A stretch of 53,964 nucleotides of DNA, from positions 1 to 53,964 of the forward strand of contig JAFWGA010000025.1 in the NCBI GenBank assembly GCA_017515325.1, read 5' to 3'. Positions 1 to 27,195 of this stretch are shown here, one piece after another. The notes below the pieces were generated by a model. The model worked only from the letters and a program-made list of their open reading frames with translations, did not search any database and had not been told where the DNA came from. The DNA comes from Blautia sp. GTDB taxonomy: Bacteria > Bacillota > Clostridia > Lachnospirales > Lachnospiraceae. Made by a program: the position numbers and the translations under genes. Each line of letters opens with the position of its first letter. Within the stretch, counting starts at the first letter, position 1.

Positions 1-123
1 GCTGCGGATCAGACCCATTTTCAGGTGATCGATCGACAGATACGGATATTTGTATTTTTCGAGCATCTTTTGTGCCAGAAGCGTTTTTCCAGTGTGAGAT
101 GCACCCGTAATCAGTATGATCAT
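1..123 (-). CDS. P-loop ATPase/kinase, N-terminal part only (runs off the window)
   Basis: An open frame starts at the ATG ending at position 123 and continues in frame to the window edge (41 codons seen). It begins with a short hydrophobic strand, MIILITG, followed by a Walker A loop (GASHTGKT, residues 7-14), so it should bind a nucleotide in the manner of a small P-loop kinase or AAA ATPase. The rest, including any Walker B or specificity motif, is outside the window, so the substrate cannot be told. It lies 25 bp downstream of the GrpB-like gene in the same direction and is probably cotranscribed with it. Confidence 0.6.
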   Translation of the reverse strand, partial: MIILITGASHTGKTLLAQKMLEKYKYPYLSIDHLKMGLIRS

Positions 124-148
124 TTTTTCCTCGTCAAGATTAAATATG

Positions 149-695
149 TCAGTATCGGTCTCCATATTCCTTTCGTGCTTCTGCCGTCCATTTGGAGATG
201 AAATCCGTCTTCGCATCTGTATATGCATCCCGGTCATGCTCATATTGTTTCCAAAGCCGGAGCTTCAAGGTTTCATATTCTTTTGCCACGGCAGGATGCG
301 CGTTCAAATAATCACGGAAGTACATTTCATCATTGTCCCCGGCGTACCGCAGATGGATATGATATACTTTATCCGCAAATCCGTTTTCAGTATATCCCTT
401 ATTAAGTGAAATCCGGTTTGCCTCGGCGTACATGACGGTAAAACCGCTCTGTTCCAATAGTTGTGCTATATCTTTCATGTCAGCGCTTTGAGGAATCTCA
501 ATCATCACATCAACAATATTTTTAGCCCATATTCCCTGAATGGCGGTGCTTCCGATATGACTGATCCGCACAACAGGCTGAGCAGCTAAAAGACCGGTCA
601 GCGTTTGCCTGATCTCATTGAAGCTATCTTTCCACCGATCATCGTGCGGCACAAGAAAGATGGGAAACAATGCCCATAACTCTTCCAAAGATAAA
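149..695 (-). pseudogene. GrpB (UPF0157) family protein lacking its own start, fused to a macrodomain remnant
   Basis: From about position 695 down to the stop at 149 the frame reads LSLEELWALFPIFLV, then PHDDRW and later HIGSTAIQGIWAKNIVDVMIEI. This is the conserved core of the GrpB/UPF0157 family, which has a nucleotidyltransferase-like fold and no firmly known role. GrpB proteins of clostridia normally have several residues before this point. Here the upstream sequence instead belongs, in another frame, to a zinc-type macrodomain protein. A first internal ATG (MEELW, ending at 688) could still start translation of 179 residues, so partial function is possible, but no good ribosome binding site is seen there. 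The rest of the domain looks intact. I call it a 5'-truncated gene created by a deletion. Confidence 0.6.
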
Positions 696-942
696 TCCCC
701 GGATCTGCGGGCGTCAACCCGGCAAGTGCCGTGACGCCCTTTCGCTTTGTTTCTTCCCGCAGGTATTCATCCTGAACACTGAGAAACTCGTCGCTGATTT
801 CACCCGGCATTCGGATGTTGAACAGGCTGCGGAGTATCCGCTTTTGCTCCGCCTCCATATGGGGTATTTTCATCCCCCGGTAACGCGGCTGCTCATCCAG
901 AAGAGAACGGATCAGGAACAGCCTTTTTTCAGTCTGGTTCAT
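684..942 (-). pseudogene. Protein-ADP-ribose hydrolase (macrodomain), N-terminal fragment
   Basis: The frame starts with MNQTEKRLFLIRSLLDEQP and runs to DPGIYLWK. This matches the N-terminal extension of the zinc-containing macrodomain protein-ADP-ribose hydrolases found in Firmicutes and often linked to sirtuin or DUF1848 genes. In the family the next residues are the start of the macrodomain itself (a GDIT motif and the ADP-ribose-binding loops). Here the frame passes directly into GrpB sequence read out of frame and ends at 598, so the whole catalytic domain is missing. The start codon is 9 bp after the DUF1848 stop, so the two were probably an operon. The product would be about 86 family residues plus 28 unrelated ones and is almost certainly non-functional. 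Confidence 0.7.
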
Positions 943-951
943 GCAATCACC

Positions 952-1899
952 TTATTTCTCTGCAAAGGAATCAAAAGGCAGACTTGTCTGCCCGTCAATC
1001 CATGACTTTTGAGGAACGTCGTGAATTTTGTCGCCATCCATATAATTGCCGATCAGGAACGGCGATCCGGGATCGTGCAGGCGGCTTTGCGCCAGCACCT
1101 TTCCTGATTCCGCGTTTGCGTAACAATATCTGCAAAGATGCCTGCAGGTGTTGTAAGCGCCGATGTCGCAGGCTAGGTAACATGCGCATTCCGCTCTCGT
1201 GCCCTTCCTCTTCGGCGCGTTCAGCCGCCTGCCGATCGCCTTTTCATAGTCGCTGATCCGCATACAGCCGCCGCAGTCGGCTCCGAAGGGTGCAAGCTCG
1301 TCACCCTCGGCGCAGGGCTTGACCGTCATTCCGTGGCCGGATGCGATCCTGATAAGCTCCTTGCCCAGCGCCAGCCGCTGTTCCTTCGTGACCTCCCGCG
1401 CTTCCGGGAAGTTTCGCCTGACCTTCGGATAAAGATCGATGAAGCTGATCACAGCGGTTTCGGTAAATCCGTCCAGTGCGGATGCGATTTGCTCGAAAGC
1501 GCGAAGATGATAGTCCATCGTGTACCGCTCCGAAACGAAGATCGGGTCGTACCGCCATCCGATGGAATTCAGGCCAACCATATCCGAAAGCCTTCTGAAA
1601 TCATCAAGGAGAAGATGCTTGTCGGGCACATTCGGTTCAATATCCCGTCCATAAGGCGTGATGGTCACGAACCAGTACTGACCGTAATCCTTCAGCAGAT
1701 CCATATGCGGAAACATTGGCGCGGGATTCTTTGTGCAAAAACCGATGACATCCACCACGGACGGATCGAGACGATAACGGCTGACCTGATTCGGATTATA
1801 GGGATTGCGGACACAGACGAAGCCTTCCTTCAGCCTGTTTGCAAACCACTCTGCGTAGAAGGCAGGGATGTCGGTCCTCTGCCCGGTATTGATAATCAT
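952..1899 (-). CDS. DUF1848 family protein (radical-SAM-like iron-sulfur protein)
   Basis: This is a 315-residue protein, close to the usual DUF1848 length. Seen directly are an N-terminal MIINTGQRTDIPAFYAEW, a TKNPAPM segment (about 55-60), and a cysteine-rich C-terminal third with CGGCM followed by a CACYLACDIGAYNTC stretch and CRHLCRYCYAN. The last motif has the CxxxCxxC spacing of radical-SAM enzymes, suggesting one or more 4Fe-4S clusters. The reaction is not established for the family. It is the first gene of a minus-strand group with the macrodomain remnant and the GrpB gene. Related pairs elsewhere suggest a link to ADP-ribose or NAD metabolism, which is inference. The gene looks intact. 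Confidence 0.8.
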   Translation of the reverse strand: MIINTGQRTDIPAFYAEWFANRLKEGFVCVRNPYNPNQVSRYRLDPSVVDVIGFCTKNPAPMFPHMDLLKDYGQYWFVTITPYGRDIEPNVPDKHLLLDDFRRLSDMVGLNSIGWRYDPIFVSERYTMDYHLRAFEQIASALDGFTETAVISFIDLYPKVRRNFPEAREVTKEQRLALGKELIRIASGHGMTVKPCAEGDELAPFGADCGGCMRISDYEKAIGRRLNAPKRKGTRAECACYLACDIGAYNTCRHLCRYCYANAESGKVLAQSRLHDPGSPFLIGNYMDGDKIHDVPQKSWIDGQTSLPFDSFAEK

Positions 1900-1928
1900 T
1901 TCATCTCACCGTCCCTGTACTGTTTCAG

Positions 1929-2033
1929 CTAAACTTTGACCACGATCTTCCCGTTGACCTTTCCCTCATCCTGGGCGGCGACGGCTTCGCGTATTCTTTC
2001 AAAATTGTACACCTGTCCACAGACCGGAGCAAG
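1929..2033 (-). pseudogene. Zinc-type alcohol dehydrogenase (MDR), C-terminal scrap
   Basis: The last 34 residues before the stop at 1929 read VYNFERIREAVAAQDEGKVN followed by GKIVVKV. This is the typical C-terminal helix and strand of zinc-type medium-chain dehydrogenases/quinone oxidoreductases. No catalytic or nucleotide-binding part exists upstream; the frame changes into a radical-SAM fragment. It is a gene relic. Confidence 0.6.
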
Positions 2034-2042
2034 ATTCTTTTT

Positions 2043-2162
2043 GTTCAGGATCTGCTTCCAGGTCATGCTGCCTGGCTTTCGGCAGGGATCGCCGGAGAAA
2101 ACATAGCAATGCTTGCCCCGCTGATCGCATTCATCCGTTATGTGCCACTGGATGGAATCAGC
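2043..2162 (-). pseudogene. Radical-SAM peptide-maturase-like N-terminal scrap
   Basis: The frame reads SIQWHITDECDQRGKHCYVF and SGDPCRKPGSMTW. It resembles the start of SPASM-type radical-SAM maturases (QWHIT-x-x-CDQR-C-KHCY). In that family the second cysteine of CxxxCxxC is essential; here it is glycine (CDQRGKHC). The fragment is followed after about 40 residues by alcohol dehydrogenase sequence and preceded by unrelated sequence, so both ends are broken and the cluster ligand is lost. Relic, not functional. Confidence 0.6.
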
Positions 2163-2243
2163 CAGAAAGTGCTTACCGACAGCCTTCGGTCGATGGAGGA
2201 GGACGGCATCATTACAAGATTCGTTGATAATCAAATGAAATAA
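2151..2243 (+). pseudogene. HxlR-family regulator scrap (winged helix)
   Basis: On the plus strand the frame reads DGISQKVLTDSLRSMEEDGI then ITRFVDNQMK and a stop. This is the recognition-helix part of HxlR/MarR-like winged-helix regulators (GISQK-L-L-x-L-E-x-DGI/L). It overlaps the end of the radical-SAM scrap on the other strand by a few bases, showing a join of unrelated gene ends. Nothing upstream in this frame looks like the rest of HxlR. Confidence 0.5.
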
Positions 2244-2322
2244 GAATGTTACCCTTCTGTACGTGTGCCCTTGCTCGTTCGCAACTTTTTTTCCGAGAAG
2301 TGGTTCAAAGGCTGTGTTATCT

Positions 2323-2328
2323 TATACT
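2323..2328 (+). promoter_or_regulatory. Possible -10 box (TATACT) for the tRNA-like RNA
   Basis: TATACT lies 13-19 bases before the 9-bp closing stem of the candidate RNA. A TGGTTC sequence 16 bases upstream (2301-2306) is only a weak -35 match. Offered as a possible promoter only. Confidence 0.25.
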
Positions 2329-2442
2329 TGCCGAAAGGCAAAAGGCACGTACAGCAATGATTATGCAGATACCTTTTAAGTATTTCGGAGCAGGTTCGAC
2401 TCCTGCGCAAGCGCGGACGCTTCCAGCAGAAAAACGTGCCTT
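2328..2442 (+). ncRNA. Candidate Y-like (YrlA-type) RNA with a tRNA-like body, upstream of the Ro-like gene
   Basis: Seen in the sequence: a GNRA-loop hairpin (TTGCC-GAAA-GGCAA, 2328-2341); then a perfect 9-bp closing stem AAGGCACGT (2342-2350) with ACGTGCCTT (2434-2442). Inside it are, in tRNA order, a small D-like arm (GCA 2354-2356/TGC 2364-2366), an anticodon-like arm with 5-bp stem GATAC/GTATT and 7-base loop CTTTTAA (2368-2384), a 5-base variable region, and a perfect T-arm GCAGG-TTCGACT-CCTGC (2390-2406) whose loop fits TTCRANY. A further hairpin AAGCG-CGGA-CGCTT (2409-2422) follows. The D-loop lacks the GG of real tRNAs and there is no CCA-bearing acceptor stem, so it is not an ordinary tRNA. 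Known biology: bacterial Ro (Rsr) genes often sit next to YrlA RNAs that mimic tRNA. The Ro-like gene starts 43 bp downstream, which supports this reading. The borders are approximate. Confidence 0.55.
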
Positions 2443-2484
2443 GTACATGAATAACGCGAGAAAACGTGGAAAGGAGAGAATATC

Positions 2485-3939
2485 ATGCTGAATTTTCTGA
2501 AGAGAACGGCGAACAGGACTTTTACCGAGAACGGCGCAGTAACGCCTCGCAGCAGCGGCTCTGACTGCCTGAACCTGTTTGCGACCATTGGAGCGTTGCG
2601 CACGCAGAGCGAAGCTGAGATCGAGAATCGTTTCCTGCGGGCTTATGCCGAGAATCCGGATCTGGCGATGAAGATTCTCTTCTATGCCCGTGATATCCGA
2701 GGCGGCTTAGGTGAGCGGTCAGTGTTCCGCACCATTCTCCGGTGGCTGGCGGAGAACGAGAAGCCCTCCCTTACGCGCAATCTGCCTTTCGTTGCGGAGT
2801 ATGGCCGATGGGACGACATTCTTGTGCTGCTGAACACACCGGCGCGCCGGGAGGCTGAGTCTGTGCTGCATCAGCAGTTTCTGGCGGACATGAAGGCACT
2901 GGAGACCGGGGAGCAGGTATCCCTGCTTGGCAAGTGGCTGCCGTCTGTGAACGCTTCCCATGCGGAGACGGTTCAACTGGCAAAGCATATCGCCCGCGCC
3001 TTCGGTATGAACGAGGCCCGGTACCGCAAGGCACTGTCTGCCCTCAGGGCGGAGATCCGCATTATTGAAAACAATCTGTGCGAGCGCGACTATACCTTCG
3101 ATTACGCGAAGCAGCCTTCCAAGGCGATGTTCAAGTACCGCCATGCTTTCATGCGCAACGACCAGGCCCGTTACCAGGCGTTCATGACGCAGGTAAAGAC
3201 CGGCGCGGCAGCCCTCCATACTGGCACGCTGATGCCGTATGAGATTGTAACGTCCACCTACCATGCGCGGGAGAATGAGCGAGAGGCCCTGGATGTAACC
3301 TGGAATGCGCTGGAGGACTTTACCGACAACGAGAACGCGCTTGTCGTGGCTGACGGCTCAGGCTCCATGTACTGGGGCAGCAATCCTCAGCCCGCAGCCG
3401 TAGCCCAGTCGCTTGCAATTTATTTTGCGGAGAGAAATCATGGCCCATTCCGTAATCACTTTATCACCTTTTCCATGTCGCCTCAGCTTGTAGAGATCAG
3501 GGGCAAGGATATTGTGGAGAAGGTCCGGTACTGCCGATCCTTCAACGAGTGTGCCAACACGAACCTGCAGGCGGTTTTTGAGCTGATCCTGCAAACTGCG
3601 TTGGAAAACCGTGTGCCGCAGAAGGATCTGCCGACTACGCTGTACATTGTTTCCGACATGGAGTTTGATTCCTGCGCACGGGATGCGTCCCTCAGCAATT
3701 TTGAAAACGCGAAGGCGCTGTATCGGAGGCACGGTTACAAGCTGCCGCGGGTTGTGTTCTGGAATGTCCAGTCGCGTAATCAGCAGCAGCCCGTGAGGAT
3801 GAATGAGCAGGGAGCCTGTCTGGTTTCCGGCTGCACTGCCAGGATTTTCTCACAGGTAATGAGCGGCGAGATGGATCCGTACACCAACATGATGAATGTC
3901 ATCGGCGGTGCGCGGTATGAGATGATCAAGGCTGGCTGA
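2485..3939 (+). CDS. Ro60-like RNA-binding ring protein (DUF2828/TROVE-like, vWA domain)
   Basis: 484 residues. The N-terminal ~240 residues are a helical-repeat region with conserved stretches FYARDIRGGLGERSVFRTIL (about 67-87), EYGRWDDIL (about 105-113) and LGKWLPSVNAS (about 152-162), as in DUF2828/TROVE-like proteins. The C-terminal half is a von Willebrand A domain with the metal-site motif DGSGSM at 290-295, later a threonine in NTNLQAVFELIL and an acidic strand YIVSDMEF. The architecture matches Ro60/Rsr proteins, which hold misfolded RNAs and Y RNAs. The start is set by AAAGGAG 8 bp before ATG. It is the only intact larger gene in a stretch of broken genes and follows a tRNA-like RNA candidate. 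No RtcB ligase or PNPase gene is adjacent. The function (RNA quality control or repair) is inferred. Confidence 0.8.
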   Translation: MLNFLKRTANRTFTENGAVTPRSSGSDCLNLFATIGALRTQSEAEIENRFLRAYAENPDLAMKILFYARDIRGGLGERSVFRTILRWLAENEKPSLTRNLPFVAEYGRWDDILVLLNTPARREAESVLHQQFLADMKALETGEQVSLLGKWLPSVNASHAETVQLAKHIARAFGMNEARYRKALSALRAEIRIIENNLCERDYTFDYAKQPSKAMFKYRHAFMRNDQARYQAFMTQVKTGAAALHTGTLMPYEIVTSTYHARENEREALDVTWNALEDFTDNENALVVADGSGSMYWGSNPQPAAVAQSLAIYFAERNHGPFRNHFITFSMSPQLVEIRGKDIVEKVRYCRSFNECANTNLQAVFELILQTALENRVPQKDLPTTLYIVSDMEFDSCARDASLSNFENAKALYRRHGYKLPRVVFWNVQSRNQQQPVRMNEQGACLVSGCTARIFSQVMSGEMDPYTNMMNVIGGARYEMIKAG

Positions 3940-3985
3940 TGTGTACAATCGCTGACGCCAGCCGAGCCAATAAGGAGTAATTGAA

Positions 3986-4231
3986 ATGTCTATCCATCAG
4001 ATGAGCGTTGGGGATGTGATCCGGTCTGGGCATTATCCCCAGAGCCACCAGGGACAGGTCATGCCAATAGAATGGCGTGTCCTGGAATGTGCATCTGGCA
4101 TTGATGAACACATTCTTTCCTTTTACTCTTTCCAAATAAAAAATGTAGTTCCTCAAAGGTATAACTGGCAGGGACAAGCTATACTCTTCTCGATTATTTC
4201 AACAGCTTTTCTTCCCACTCAGCTTCCTTGA
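3986..4231 (+). pseudogene. DUF6273 domain protein, truncated
   Basis: With a good ribosome binding site (AAGGAGT) the frame starts MSIHQMSVGDVIRSGHYPQS and reads PIEWRVLEC. This is the opening of the DUF6273 domain (GD-x-I-x-F-GHYPQ, PIEWRVL), common in clostridial cell-surface or phage-like proteins of unknown role. In intact members more than 100 further residues follow. Here the sequence loses resemblance after about residue 36 and stops at 81. The tail runs into the end of the gene on the opposite strand. Probably a remnant, though a short peptide could be made. Confidence 0.5.
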
Positions 4232-4550
4232 ACCCAGTCAACACGAAATCCTCTCCAATCAAAAGAGGTCTCTTTACAATCATTCCGTCCGTGGCCAATA
4301 AAGTAAACTGCTCATCTTCGCTCATTGCAGGCAGCTTCTTTGAAAGTTCCATATCCCTGTATATTTGCCCGCTGGTATTAAAGAATCTCTTCAGTGGGAG
4401 GCCACTCATAGAATGGTATTTCCGGAGCGTCTCTTCATCCGGATGATCTGTTTTGATATCAAGCAAACTGTACTCGATACTGTGTTCATCCAGCCATCTC
4501 AGGGCCTTCTTACAAGTGGAACATCTGCTGTAACAGTACACGTTAAGCAT
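4194..4550 (-). CDS. Spx/ArsC-like thioredoxin-fold protein (arsenate reductase family)
   Basis: 118 residues from MLNVYCYSRCSTCKKAL. The CxxC motif (CSTC) near the N-terminus, the LDIKTDHPDEETL segment and VKRPLLI near the C-terminus are typical of the ArsC/Spx/YffB group. Spx members are redox-sensing RNA polymerase partners, while ArsC members reduce arsenate; the sequence alone does not decide, and no ars genes are nearby. Start choice: an in-frame ATG lies three codons upstream (ending at 4559) but sits right on the AAGGGGG ribosome binding site, whereas the ATG ending at 4550 is 9 bp from it. The first codons overlap the stop of a broken receiver-domain gene on the same strand. Confidence 0.75.
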   Translation of the reverse strand: MLNVYCYSRCSTCKKALRWLDEHSIEYSLLDIKTDHPDEETLRKYHSMSGLPLKRFFNTSGQIYRDMELSKKLPAMSEDEQFTLLATDGMIVKRPLLIGEDFVLTGFKEAEWEEKLLK

Positions 4551-4852
4551 AGCTTTCATCCCCCTTCTGCCATTTCCGTATTATCGCGGTCATCCTGCCG
4601 TCATCAACAGGTGTGTAATAGTCGTTCAAGAGTATCCTGATGATTCCATCATAAACTCTTGAAGGGACATTGTAAAGTGATTCATGAAAGCCCTAAGAGG
4701 AGGATCAACAGTCCGCGTTTGTTGGTCTTGATATATTCAATCAGCGCTATACCTGATTTCAGGGCTGTCACACGCATATTATTCTTACTGAGGATTCGCC
4801 CGGCCATCTTAAGATTGGTAACATCATCATCTACAACAATAACCCAGTCCAT
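4543..4852 (-). pseudogene. Response-regulator receiver domain with internal deletion
   Basis: The first part (4682-4852) reads MDWVIVVDDDVTNLKMAGRI and continues to YIKTNK. It carries the acidic triad of a receiver domain and normal spacing up to where the phospho-acceptor strand (LILLD) should come. There it becomes RGLLILLLGLS and stops. A second open stretch (4543-4665) in another frame reads DYYTPVDDGRMTAIIRKWQK, which resembles the last helix of a receiver domain. The middle, including the phosphorylated aspartate and the switch threonine, is missing. It is likely the end of a former hybrid histidine kinase or a stand-alone regulator. The TAA of the second part overlaps the start codon region of the Spx-like gene. 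Confidence 0.5.
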
Positions 4853-5011
4853 GGAAAATACCTCCTGCCTGCATCCACTGTTCTTTTTGTTCAATTTCTA
4901 CGAAGACCTTGTTGACGAATCAAATAATTCATTGTAGCACAAAGTGATGGGCTATTCCAGTTCCCCAAACGGAAAAAAGAAGCATATGGCGGAATAGCAA
5001 AAAAGGGACAC

Positions 5012-24360: not shown

Positions 24361-25521
24361 GTGTCGTGGATTATCATTATGTTTCAAGACCTCCTGCAGG
24401 GTTTCATCATAATCCCTGTGAATCAAATCCGGGTGATTCCTGAGCATGAAGCGCATGACCAGATGGTTCAGGTCATGCAGTCTCTGGTACCAGGAATCAC
24501 GTCTCTTTCGAAGCTCTTCTTTTTTCTCCTGAAGGACTTGCAGCTTTTCCTGCATGGCTTGCTGAGATTCTTTGACCGATTCGGCAAGCTTTTCTTTTCT
24601 CTCTTCCATCTCTTCCTTCCATTGCCGTTTTCTCTCGGCAGCGGCCTGCCCCAGCTGATGTCTCTTTTGAGCGAAGGTTTGGGCTCTCCGGCTCAATTCC
24701 GGGTGTTTTTCCTCGAAGGCTTCTTTTCTGGCCGTTAGCAAGGAGTCCTTTTCCTCTATCCACTGGTTCTTCTTCTCTTCGAACTCCTCTTTGGTCTCCA
24801 CCAGATTGGGATCTTCATCACTATCCGCATAAGGGCTATCCGCTTCGCCCATGTTCTTTGCATCCTTTAGAGCATCCTGGGCAGCAAAGGTTCCCTCGCC
24901 AATAATCATGCTCATCCTGTTGGATACGGTTCTCATGGAGGCGCGAATCTCATCCAGTTCCTTCAGCTCCTGATTCAGCTGCAGCATAACAAGCACACAC
25001 ACAATCAGATCCGCCAGATAGAAGACATAAAGGACAAGCAAAACCCACCAGCCGATACGTTCCGGCATCAGCCTCCCTGATGCTCTGTTCAATATCGGAT
25101 GCAGAAGCTTTATGACAAGGACAATCCCTGCCCCCCAGATCAGGCTGAACTTCAGGCAGATATAGCCGTGGAAATTGAAGGGCTGATTTGAATAATCCCA
25201 CCACCTCGCATGAAAAATCTTATCGAGAGCAAAGCCGCCGATCAGCTCTACCAATGTGGCCAGGACAACTCCTACCGAAAAGAGCAGGAAAAGATCCACC
25301 GGCTGATGAGAAGTCTCTGTCCTTATATTCAGGCTATTGATCGCAGCGAGAATCAGAATAACACCAAATCCATAGACAGGGCATACCGGTCCGTTCAGGA
25401 AGCCGCGATTGATCACCTTACGAAGCCGGACTGCGTGAAAAACCACTTCCACAACCCAGCCAAAGAAAGAATAGATAATAAAATAGGAGCAAATCTGATA
25501 ATACGTCATTCCAACCAGCAT
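24349..25521 (-). CDS. CmpB-like polytopic membrane protein with cytoplasmic coiled-coil tail
   Basis: 390 residues. The N-terminal ~190 contain the ABC_trans_CmpB-type motifs YFIIYSFFGWVVEVVFHA, RGFLNGPVCPVYGFG and a W-W-DYSNQPFNFHGYICLKFSL stretch with about six membrane helices. After about residue 195 comes a highly charged region rich in E, K, R and Q that should form a long coiled coil, ending in RNHPDLIHRDYDE. Despite its family name, transport activity is not shown for the family. Start chosen at MLVG because GGAGG lies close by. It is alone, between a terminator and the ABC transporter genes. Confidence 0.72.
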   Translation of the reverse strand: MLVGMTYYQICSYFIIYSFFGWVVEVVFHAVRLRKVINRGFLNGPVCPVYGFGVILILAAINSLNIRTETSHQPVDLFLLFSVGVVLATLVELIGGFALDKIFHARWWDYSNQPFNFHGYICLKFSLIWGAGIVLVIKLLHPILNRASGRLMPERIGWWVLLVLYVFYLADLIVCVLVMLQLNQELKELDEIRASMRTVSNRMSMIIGEGTFAAQDALKDAKNMGEADSPYADSDEDPNLVETKEEFEEKKNQWIEEKDSLLTARKEAFEEKHPELSRRAQTFAQKRHQLGQAAAERKRQWKEEMEERKEKLAESVKESQQAMQEKLQVLQEKKEELRKRRDSWYQRLHDLNHLVMRFMLRNHPDLIHRDYDETLQEVLKHNDNPRHYEA

Positions 25522-25617
25522 ATCTCCTCCCAAGCCGAAGTTTTGTACGTTGTCCCAATGTCTTCGGACAACAATTTGTTTTCCTTCTACGACAATCCTG
25601 CTGCTTTGAATTTCCTG

Positions 25618-26289
25618 TTACTGTCTATCGCGGTTCAGCCGCTTTTCAAGCCTTTTGGCCAGACGGGAAAGCGTCGTGATGACAATGAGATACATAAGCC
25701 CGACAATAATCCAGGTCTGAAAGGACATGAACGTGTTGGCTACTACATTTTTTGCCGTATTTACCAGCTCCGGGAACCCGATCACCGACAGAATCGACGT
25801 ATCCTTCAAGGTGATAATAAACTGGTTGATGATGCTCGGTATCATCGTACGGATGGCCTGGGGAAGAACAACCCTCTGCATAGACCGCCAGTAAGAAAGA
25901 CCAAGGCTTCTGGCCGCTTCCATCTGTCCAACATCCACAGACTGAATCCCCGCCCGGATGATCTCAGACATATATGCCCCACAGTTCAGAGCCAGGCAGA
26001 TGGTACCTGCCTGCATAGCCGTCAAGGTAACCTTCAGTCCCCCCAGCGTATTTAACCCATAGGGTAAACCAAAGTAGACAAAGTACGCCAGGACGATCAT
26101 GGGTACGCCACGGATGATGTCCACAAAAATCTGTGCGATGATATTGCAGACACGGCTGTGAAGTACGCTCATCATTCCGAAGATGATCCCCAGAATACAG
26201 GCAAAAAACAAACCATAGAGAGCAAGAAGCAAAGTATGGCCCATCGCAGACGCCAGAAGTCTCCCGTAAGATGTCAATATTCGGATCAT
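25618..26289 (-). CDS. Amino-acid ABC transporter permease (HisM/GlnP type)
   Basis: 223 residues with about five membrane helices. The EAA loop that contacts the ATPase is clear (EAARSLGLSYWRSMQRVVLP, about 126-145), followed by the MIPSIINQFIITLKDTSILS motif of polar amino-acid permeases. It should form a homodimeric channel for a polar amino acid. Preceded 108 bp upstream by the binding-protein gene with a hairpin between them. No ATP-binding subunit gene lies nearby, so it must share an ATPase encoded elsewhere. Confidence 0.9.
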   Translation of the reverse strand: MIRILTSYGRLLASAMGHTLLLALYGLFFACILGIIFGMMSVLHSRVCNIIAQIFVDIIRGVPMIVLAYFVYFGLPYGLNTLGGLKVTLTAMQAGTICLALNCGAYMSEIIRAGIQSVDVGQMEAARSLGLSYWRSMQRVVLPQAIRTMIPSIINQFIITLKDTSILSVIGFPELVNTAKNVVANTFMSFQTWIIVGLMYLIVITTLSRLAKRLEKRLNRDRQ

Positions 26290-26328
26290 GGATACCTATA
26301 TCCTCCTATATCTATGTAAAACTATGAA

Positions 26329-26367
26329 AAAAACCAGCCCTGTGGTATTTTTCCGGCAGGACTGGTT
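26329..26367 (-). terminator. Intra-operon attenuator between binding protein and permease
   Basis: Minus strand stem AAAACCAGTCCTG / CAGGGCTGGTTTT with a ~14-base loop followed by more T. It lies between the two genes and probably lowers permease mRNA relative to the binding protein. Confidence 0.65.
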
Positions 26368-26397
26368 TTCCCTTCGCTGTAAAGCTGCTGTTATGAT

Positions 26398-27195
26398 TTA
26401 GTTTTCAGCGCTACCAAAGGCCTCTACTGCAAGGGCAGCTGCTTCTTCTCCCAGGTACTTCGCGATGATCTCTTCGTACGTCCCATTCTCGATAATGGAG
26501 GCAAGGCCTGCATTGAAAAGATCGATCAGCTCCTGACCTTCCTCATTGAAAACGGCAAACCCATAAGGTGTGGCTTCATTCTCAGAGCCTTCAACAATCT
26601 GCAGAGCAAGTCCACCCTCCTGAATCGATGCCGCCATAATCGGGGTATCCTCAAAGCAGGCTGAAACCTGGCCGCCCAGGACAGCCTGATACATGATAGG
26701 TGAGTCCTCATAATATGTAATCTCGAAGCCATATTCATCCTTGAGGCTCTCGGCATAACCTGCACCCTGGGTTCCTGTCTTAACACCCACCGTCTGCCCG
26801 CTCAGATCCTCGAAGCTGCTGATTTCAGAGCCTTCCTGGACTGTCATACACTGTGTGGCATTGTAATATCCATCAGAAAAGATCCATCCGCTTTCCTTTC
26901 TCTCGTCCGTGATGGATGCACCCGCGATCATACCGTCGGCCTGTCTGGCCTGGCAGGCAGCGATAGAAGCGTCCCAGCCAAGGCTGTTGAGATCGTAGGT
27001 GAAGCCCTGATCCTCTGCGACAGCCGCAAGCAGATCAACGTCTATTCCCACGAAATTGCCCTTTTCATCTGTATATTCAAATGGCTTGAATACGGTATCT
27101 GTTGCAATGGTGAAATGCTTTTCTTCCGCCATAACCGGGACAAGAAGACTGGCAGCTGTGACAGCCGCAACAGCCCATGCTAACTGCTTTTTCAT
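26398..27195 (-). CDS. Amino-acid ABC transporter substrate-binding protein
   Basis: 265 residues from MKKQLAWAVAAVTAASLLVP. Family-3 solute-binding features: FTIATDTVFKPFEYTDEKGN, FVGIDVDLLAAVAED, GWDASIAACQARQADGMIAG and VGVKTGTQGAGYAESL. The signal peptide ends around VPVMAEE and has no lipobox cysteine, which is unusual because binding proteins of Gram-positives are normally lipoproteins. Ligand is a polar amino acid or similar; not resolvable. GGAGG lies 12 bp upstream of the start; a GTGGAGG-overlapping ATG 21 bp earlier is less likely. Transcribed ahead of the permease gene. Confidence 0.88.
   Translation of the reverse strand: MKKQLAWAVAAVTAASLLVPVMAEEKHFTIATDTVFKPFEYTDEKGNFVGIDVDLLAAVAEDQGFTYDLNSLGWDASIAACQARQADGMIAGASITDERKESGWIFSDGYYNATQCMTVQEGSEISSFEDLSGQTVGVKTGTQGAGYAESLKDEYGFEITYYEDSPIMYQAVLGGQVSACFEDTPIMAASIQEGGLALQIVEGSENEATPYGFAVFNEEGQELIDLFNAGLASIIENGTYEEIIAKYLGEEAAALAVEAFGSAEN

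Follow-up and report, generated by a model that had tools for sequence, protein, structure and literature searches.

A putative tRNA-mimicking Y-like RNA paired with a predicted Ro60-like DUF2828 protein in Blautia and related loci

Introduction

The closest described systems to the locus reported here are the ribonucleoproteins (RNPs) formed by Ro60/Rsr proteins and small Y RNAs, such as those of Deinococcus radiodurans Rsr and vertebrate Ro60. In D. radiodurans, according to sections of two reports, the Y RNA acts as a tether or gate between Rsr and PNPase (PMC7790460, PMC12282133). One of these reports offers, in the YrlA RNAs (RF02553), a precedent for the decoy idea and says that their tRNA-like domain is not a nuclease substrate (PMC7790460). 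Ro-like genes are also found in phages (mycobacteriophages such as LeBron and the Listeria phage CKA15), and phage tRNA genes are described, in part of a further report, as an answer to tRNA-cleaving defence (PMC12409363). Here, we analyze a 53,964-nucleotide (nt) stretch of DNA from Blautia sp. (GCA_017515325.1, contig JAFWGA010000025.1, positions 1 to 53,964, forward strand; hereafter the window), in which a small, partly tRNA-like RNA element precedes a gene of the DUF2828 type.

The window locus resembles the Ro60/Rsr RNPs in the predicted fold of its protein, which corresponds over nearly the full length (ring plus vWA domain), and in an adjoining small RNA whose two ends pair in a closing stem. 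It differs from them in that its protein lacks a TROVE match in Pfam, in an RCAGCAA motif at the end stem, and in that many related loci carry several RNAs with different inserts. Like YrlA, the RNAs mount a tRNA-like module on an end stem, and a minority of relatives even exhibit the permuted order of T arm, capped acceptor and D arm; however, all matches to the YrlA model fall below its 69-bit cut-off and the normal order of D and T arms is the more frequent. As in the Salmonella rsr-yrlBA-rtcBA operon, a Ro-like gene, Y-like RNAs and RtcB occur together in a third of the relatives, whereas the recurrent regulators we encountered are WYL-type (RtcR and RtcA were not searched for), the RNAs form arrays, and the window copy is without RtcB. 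The Ro-like phage genes belong to the same protein family. Much like phage tRNA genes, the locus could be a reply to tRNA-attacking enzymes, except that Y-like RNAs are no tRNAs and would act as decoys.

Results

Comparison with related loci supports what a first-pass annotation had proposed from the window sequence, namely that a Y-like RNA which mimics tRNA has a Ro60-like protein of the DUF2828 type as its partner. The two partners and their parts are as follows.

2342..2443, + strand: putative Y-like RNA gene, with ends AAGGCAC-GT-ACAGCAA ... ACGTGCCTT-G, delimited by comparison with relatives
2342..2350, + strand: closing stem, 5' arm, pairing with 2434-2442
2351..2357, + strand: ACAGCAA, presumed protein-contact motif, at fixed spacing from the core stem in the family
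2369..2383, + strand: anticodon-stem-loop mimic ATAC-CTTTTAA-GTAT, with the loop of the genome's own tRNA-Lys(UUU)
2390..2406, + strand: T-arm mimic GCAGG-TTCGACT-CCTGC, seen in the sequence
2409..2422, + strand: extra hairpin AAGCG-CGGA-CGCTT, outside the tRNA plan, from the fold and relatives
2434..2442, + strand: closing stem, 3' arm, followed by G2443
2485..3939, + strand: DUF2828 plus DUF7788 protein, 484 aa, predicted Ro60-like ring and vWA domain with metal ion-dependent adhesion site (MIDAS) residues

Searches with the window protein yielded matches in 15 of 98 related genomes and in 79 named loci, which by their titles come mainly from gut and rumen Clostridia, with some labelled Synergistales or otherwise; Butyrivibrio hungatei XBD2006 (L097) and Oscillibacter valericigenes Sjm18-20 (L057) are among the carriers. 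The loci used for elements and arrays are the best 80 of 92 found in this way; L003 was excluded because it duplicates L093, L035 was left out of the 79 with its gene at a contig edge, and the count of upstream elements used 77 of the remaining 78. The RNA elements share a common plan, in which a core stem of 7 bp (typically AARRYRY) is followed by two bases, the motif RCAGCAA and an insert, and then by the paired arm and a G. The RCAGCAA motif lies at a fixed spacing of 2 nt from the core, and a G directly follows the closing stem in 244 of 258 elements. Within 1500 nt upstream of the gene, 124 elements are present in 64 of the 77 loci, compared to 3 when the reverse strand is searched, 7 in downstream sequence, 2.6 in shuffled sequences and 0-7 for seven control motifs. 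The entire element set comprises 296 members, or 261 without near copies, and includes some chance ones (L001 698-826 is one).

The first-pass annotation had suggested a check of stem conservation and covariation upstream of related genes, and the end stem proved to be conserved with strong covariation. Among 15 window-type RNAs, a double change in any sequence occurs at 3 of 19 pairs, and their consensus fold backs both the end stem and the anticodon-type hairpin but lacks the T arm. A wider set was needed because the end stem is nearly invariant in these RNAs and the T arm falls outside their consensus. In one element alignment, the seven core positions are canonical by construction, since pairing was a search condition, and therefore a fair test took all NNNNNNN-NN-RCAGCAA sites within 2500 nt upstream of the gene, with no pairing demanded. 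From 329 such sites, 212 had an exact partner of their own no more than about 200 nt away, in 210 cases followed by G, and this was true across 46 different cores, whereas swapped cores paired in 3.0%.

Searches of viral contigs with the RNA motif alone returned 85 and 71 stretches for two stems, while a scrambled motif (one scramble, one stem) gave 0 matches versus the 85. A DUF2828 gene was present in 89 of the 149 viral loci fetched. Among 165 viral RNA matches, it lay on the same strand no more than 6 kb downstream in 75 and farther away in 1, upstream of the RNA in 25, and on the other strand in 1; another 31 matches had no visible DUF2828 gene with less than 3.5 kb of room. Elements are likewise found ahead of DUF2828 genes in phages of Listeria, Campylobacter, Enterococcus and Bacillus and on two plasmids. 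A chance hairpin was rejected on the basis of the element counts relative to controls, the scrambled-motif search and the covariation test. Based upon these comparisons, the RNA family is almost certainly real, and it is very likely the partner of the Ro-like protein. No description of the family was found among the titles and abstract openings of the literature, which leaves an earlier mention possible.

In the window RNA itself, the closing stem is perfect over 9 bp with 0 mismatches (2342-2350 with 2434-2442), just as had been annotated. The structured stretch had been placed at 2328-2442; structure is indeed present, but the limits of the RNA are 2342-2443. A start at 2328 is too early because the hairpin found there, TTGCC-GAAA-GGCAA at 2328-2341, overlaps a -10-like TATACT (2323-2328) by one base and the element shared with relatives starts at 2342. 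The fold of 2328-2442 has an energy of -37.6 versus -28.2 kcal/mol in shuffles (z -2.6; 4 of 200 shuffles equally good), which is moderate support by itself, while the comparative evidence is strong. By DNA search the RNA is the only copy in its genome, where five other pattern sites consist of four that are unpaired and one intrinsic-terminator-like hairpin. The DUF2828 gene follows at a distance of 41 nt.

The predicted 7-base anticodon-like loop is CTTTTAA at 2373-2379, closed by ATAC/GTAT (2369-2372/2380-2383), and is identical to the loop of the window genome's tRNA-Lys(UUU); the RNA thus displays a true anticodon loop. Arms in tRNA order had been described as well, which holds for the anticodon-type hairpin and the T arm that follows it, but not all of the tRNA arms are there. 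The "textbook" T arm exists as sequence, yet it does not form as drawn in the single-sequence minimum-energy fold, which contains the end stem and the anticodon-type hairpin. Its word GGTTCGA is found in 9 of the 15 window-type RNAs, and accordingly the T arm is not a constant feature. With neither an acceptor/CCA nor a D-loop GG, the element is no working tRNA, in agreement with the annotation: the Rfam tRNA model (RF00005) scores 23.2 bits against a cut-off of 29, covering model positions 9-63 of 71 without the acceptor stem, and ARAGORN calls no tRNA at this site. On these results and the covarying stem, a plain tRNA gene or tRNA remnant was rejected. Membership in YrlA was also rejected, as the 69-bit model gave no match in 2150-2600 up to E 10 and the anticodon-type hairpin precedes the T arm, unlike in the permuted order. 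Comparison with YrlA did succeed in part, as two related loci, L012 and L011, scored 45.6, 41.4 and 37.4 bits, with a weak 23.9 in L003. In eight array-rich loci the YrlA model matched nothing up to E 1, and an Rfam scan of them for other imitated RNAs returned tRNA, one ROOL and weak matches.

The relatives extend well beyond the single RNA considered in the first-pass annotation. By a loose count, bacterial loci carry 0 to 10 elements (0 in 5 of 78, one in 25 and two in 19), or up to 9 on a stricter list. Within a locus, the 5' ends are 73% identical and the inserts 46%, compared with 44% for shuffled letters (385 pairs). According to simple filters, the 261 non-redundant inserts include 49 with a T arm only, 21 with D then T, 8 with the permuted T then D, 3 with D only and 24 with only an anticodon hairpin. 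Anticodon-loop hairpins matching tRNAs of the window genome occur in 41 of the 261, as opposed to 0 on the reverse strand and a mean of 0.36 in shuffles. When any fetched tRNA is admitted, the count rises to 72, with A or U at position 36 in 62 of these 72 loops versus 265 of 443 tRNAs (Fisher 9e-6), a comparison that is partly circular because the fetched set includes 21 ARAGORN calls inside elements; the own-genome set is its clean version. Of the 99 elements under 75 nt, 27 display just an anticodon hairpin. By eye, we also spotted a recurrent non-tRNA insert type, GAATAGGCTA...GAACCTTATC, in the arrays of L051, L054, L055, L063 and L072.

The protein partner is encoded by an intact 484-aa open reading frame with Pfam matches to DUF2828 (1.8e-38) and DUF7788 (1.3e-41), and it also matches PHROG 850, "RNA-binding protein" (1.3e-132). 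A Pfam scan at E 0.001 found these two domains and no TROVE, nor was Ro60 retrieved from the PDB by sequence. The predicted fold consists of a helical-repeat ring followed by a vWA domain and matches Ro60/Rsr structurally over most of its length. Residues D290, S292, S294, T359 and D391 are invariant in 60 sequences and presumably constitute the MIDAS metal site, as judged from the pattern of vWA domains. The annotated identity of the protein thus stands, and we predict a Ro60-like ring protein, a relative of human Ro60. DUF2828-type proteins occur in 682 of 50,697 phage records. Papers that mention DUF2828 point to plants in their titles and abstract openings.

The RNA and its gene had further been described as an intact pair within a field of broken genes, which the comparison upholds. 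A blastn search of window 1-4300 (plus strand) versus L028, a related locus in a Blautia assembly from sheep abomasum, yielded only two blocks: 2272-2449, which covers an operator-like word, the promoter and the RNA, and 2450-3941, which covers the DUF2828 gene. The gene evolves under constraint (dN/dS 0.14). Given the two-block match and the constrained gene, the promoter region, RNA and gene constitute one conserved unit of ~1.7 kb. Two short gene remnants, both below the Pfam cut-off, lie on either side, one of 101 aa resembling a zinc dehydrogenase at 1929-2234 and one of 70 aa resembling a response regulator at 4682-4894. The promoter region contains the following features.

2280..2295, + strand: operator-like DNA word CGCAACTTTTTTTCCG, a possible promoter or regulator site
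2323..2328, + strand: -10-like box TATACT, seen in the sequence

The word (CGCA, 1-2 bases, T5-9, CCG; CGCA-n-CTTTTTTn-CCG) is located upstream in 26 of the 79 searched loci, one of which is the window. It starts 48-65 nt 5' of the first element in 13 of the 26 (62 in the window) and lies farther off in the other 13. This shared word is a candidate operator for WYL-type proteins. No good -35 was seen at the usual distance from the window TATACT, and for this reason the promoter may depend upon an activator.

WYL-type genes are present in 46 of the 62 relatives' loci with 3.5 kb of upstream sequence, counted as three clusters by their representatives; one representative is below the Pfam cut-off (22.3 vs 23.9), and a member of that cluster matches the PADLOC WYL model (1.5e-14). 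RtcB was found in 24 of 69 loci, in 19 directly downstream within 250 nt. The representative of a six-locus neighbour cluster matches RlaP. ARAGORN calls separate tRNA genes in the vicinity of 28 of the 78 bacterial loci, for example at L072:7363-7877, most commonly Lys (19) and Glu (18), followed by Gln, Asp, Asn and Tyr; these are possibly replacement tRNAs. A clear ROOL RNA (287 bits) is situated between WYL-type genes and a Y-like array at L083:2794-3388, and ROOL was seen beside the DUF2828 module in two loci, this one and CKA15.

In CKA15, three family elements are located at 25,289-25,553 of OR088597.1, the cka15 record, and a promoter-like TTGACA/TATCAT pair precedes them. The authors of that study suspect Y RNAs near CKA15_055, with no RNA family defined in the available portion of their text, and they report 26,236-26,727 (CKA15_059-061) as the most transcribed of three heavily transcribed regions (PMC12282133). 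We considered whether the family elements are these regions and rejected the idea for the main one, since the reported interval holds no element and matches ROOL: 26,195-26,746 (L197:4898-5449) aligns with the whole model at 90.1 bits (E 1.9e-18), under the 99.1-bit cut-off. The same portion of the report lists the Ro-like CKA15_055 (L197:6429-7949) among proteins of purified phage particles, with 20 peptides (PMC12282133); based upon this detection, CKA15_055 may travel with the virion.

Discussion

The comparative results support a real RNA family, a covarying end stem with ACAGCAA, linkage to DUF2828, a predicted Ro60 fold and, in part of the RNAs, tRNA-like inserts. The reading we prefer, with a probability of roughly 45%, is that the locus encodes a compact Ro-type RNP module whose RNA serves as a decoy for tRNA-attacking enzymes. 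Such a module would comprise a promoter, one Y-like RNA and a Ro-like ring protein that most likely binds the RNA. Presumably, the protein grips the constant end (the stem with its ACAGCAA), with the insert left exposed. This insert would be the working part, exchanged between RNAs, and in the window it would display a T arm along with the anticodon loop of tRNA-Lys(UUU). The decoy could then keep tRNA-attacking or processing enzymes, anticodon nucleases above all, away from real tRNAs. RtcB, where present, reseals cut tRNAs and possibly cut decoys, while the WYL-type genes at three quarters of the relatives' loci could control the locus.

Several observations weigh against the decoy interpretation. 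No transcript, binding or nuclease data were found for the Y-like RNA family and no nuclease partner is known; ten recurrent neighbour representatives scanned with Pfam include no nuclease family, and the window protein matches nothing clearly in the PADLOC library (best 0.003). By our filters 156 of the 261 inserts show no tRNA part, and consequently "tRNA decoy" cannot cover every RNA. Even in the window, the tRNA-Lys loop is copied but its stem is not (the tRNA stem is CTTGA/TCAAG), and CTTTTAA is kept in only 7 of the 15 window-type RNAs, the window included. RtcB was not found in the window genome (88% complete), nor did any of eight window proteins scanned match WYL. Furthermore, 32 of the 165 viral RNA matches are without DUF2828 despite at least 3.5 kb of room, and no family element lies within 3 kb upstream of the DUF2828 genes of LeBron, fjerdesal, a Staphylococcus phage, Munch and Aeh1; fjerdesal has one match, which lacks the features of the family.

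A broader form of the decoy idea is doubtful, yet it deserves mention. Here, Ro rings with exchangeable Y-like RNAs would form a modular library, each RNA presenting one piece of a tRNA or other RNA and thereby absorbing enzymes that attack tRNA, whether from phages, rivals or host defence, with RtcB resealing cut decoys for reuse and WYL switching the array on; the piece most commonly displayed would be the anticodon loop of tRNAs for codons that begin with A or U. The main rival of the decoy reading, which we consider unlikely, is the tether or gate of Deinococcus, whereby the insert would serve as a docking site that brings an RNase or an enzyme of RNA repair (PNPase, RtcB or tRNA modification enzymes) to a ring handling damaged RNA. 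The established role of the Rsr Y RNA and the recurrence of RtcB are both in its favor, but it does not readily explain as many as 9-10 RNAs with unrelated inserts in one locus, or short RNAs that show only an anticodon hairpin.

The frequency of WYL-type genes invites another explanation, in which the RNA is bait: an invading nuclease cuts the displayed anticodon loop, and the cut RNA or freed ring triggers a WYL-controlled induction of repair. RtcR of the Salmonella operon, which part of one report describes as sensing cut tRNAs (PMC7790460), would be a parallel. We regard this as rather improbable, given that no ligand or effector is shown, the WYL clusters contain no phage locus, and the window itself has the above-mentioned lack of WYL matches. 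Still less probable is a leader RNA bound by the protein for self-regulation, with an incidental likeness to tRNA. Many elements are directly 5' of the gene, in keeping with a 5' untranslated region, as is the 41-nt gap in the window, but loci often contain several elements, some of them >1 kb upstream, the gene precedes the RNA in the 25 viral cases mentioned, and true anticodon loops are far above chance. Finally, the moderate single-sequence fold score, the tRNA-like letters and the tRNA genes near many loci could all be expected from decayed tRNA genes or chance structure. This is very unlikely, as the stem covaries with RCAGCAA at fixed spacing, the elements are linked to DUF2828, and the block is conserved along with the promoter region.

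The role of bacterial Ro proteins and Y RNAs is largely open, and the loci described here provide many natural RNA variants built upon one constant frame. Because these variants share their frame and the inserts can partly be matched to tRNA species, the question of what the tRNA-like part catches becomes directly testable. The multi-RNA arrays of the relatives, with their differing tRNA parts and frequent proximity to RtcB and WYL-type genes, take the subject beyond the single pair initially noted in Blautia. At the same time, a large family of phage proteins whose function is unclear gains a candidate RNA partner, and is linked to repair by RtcB, to WYL-type genes and, at two loci, to ROOL RNA.
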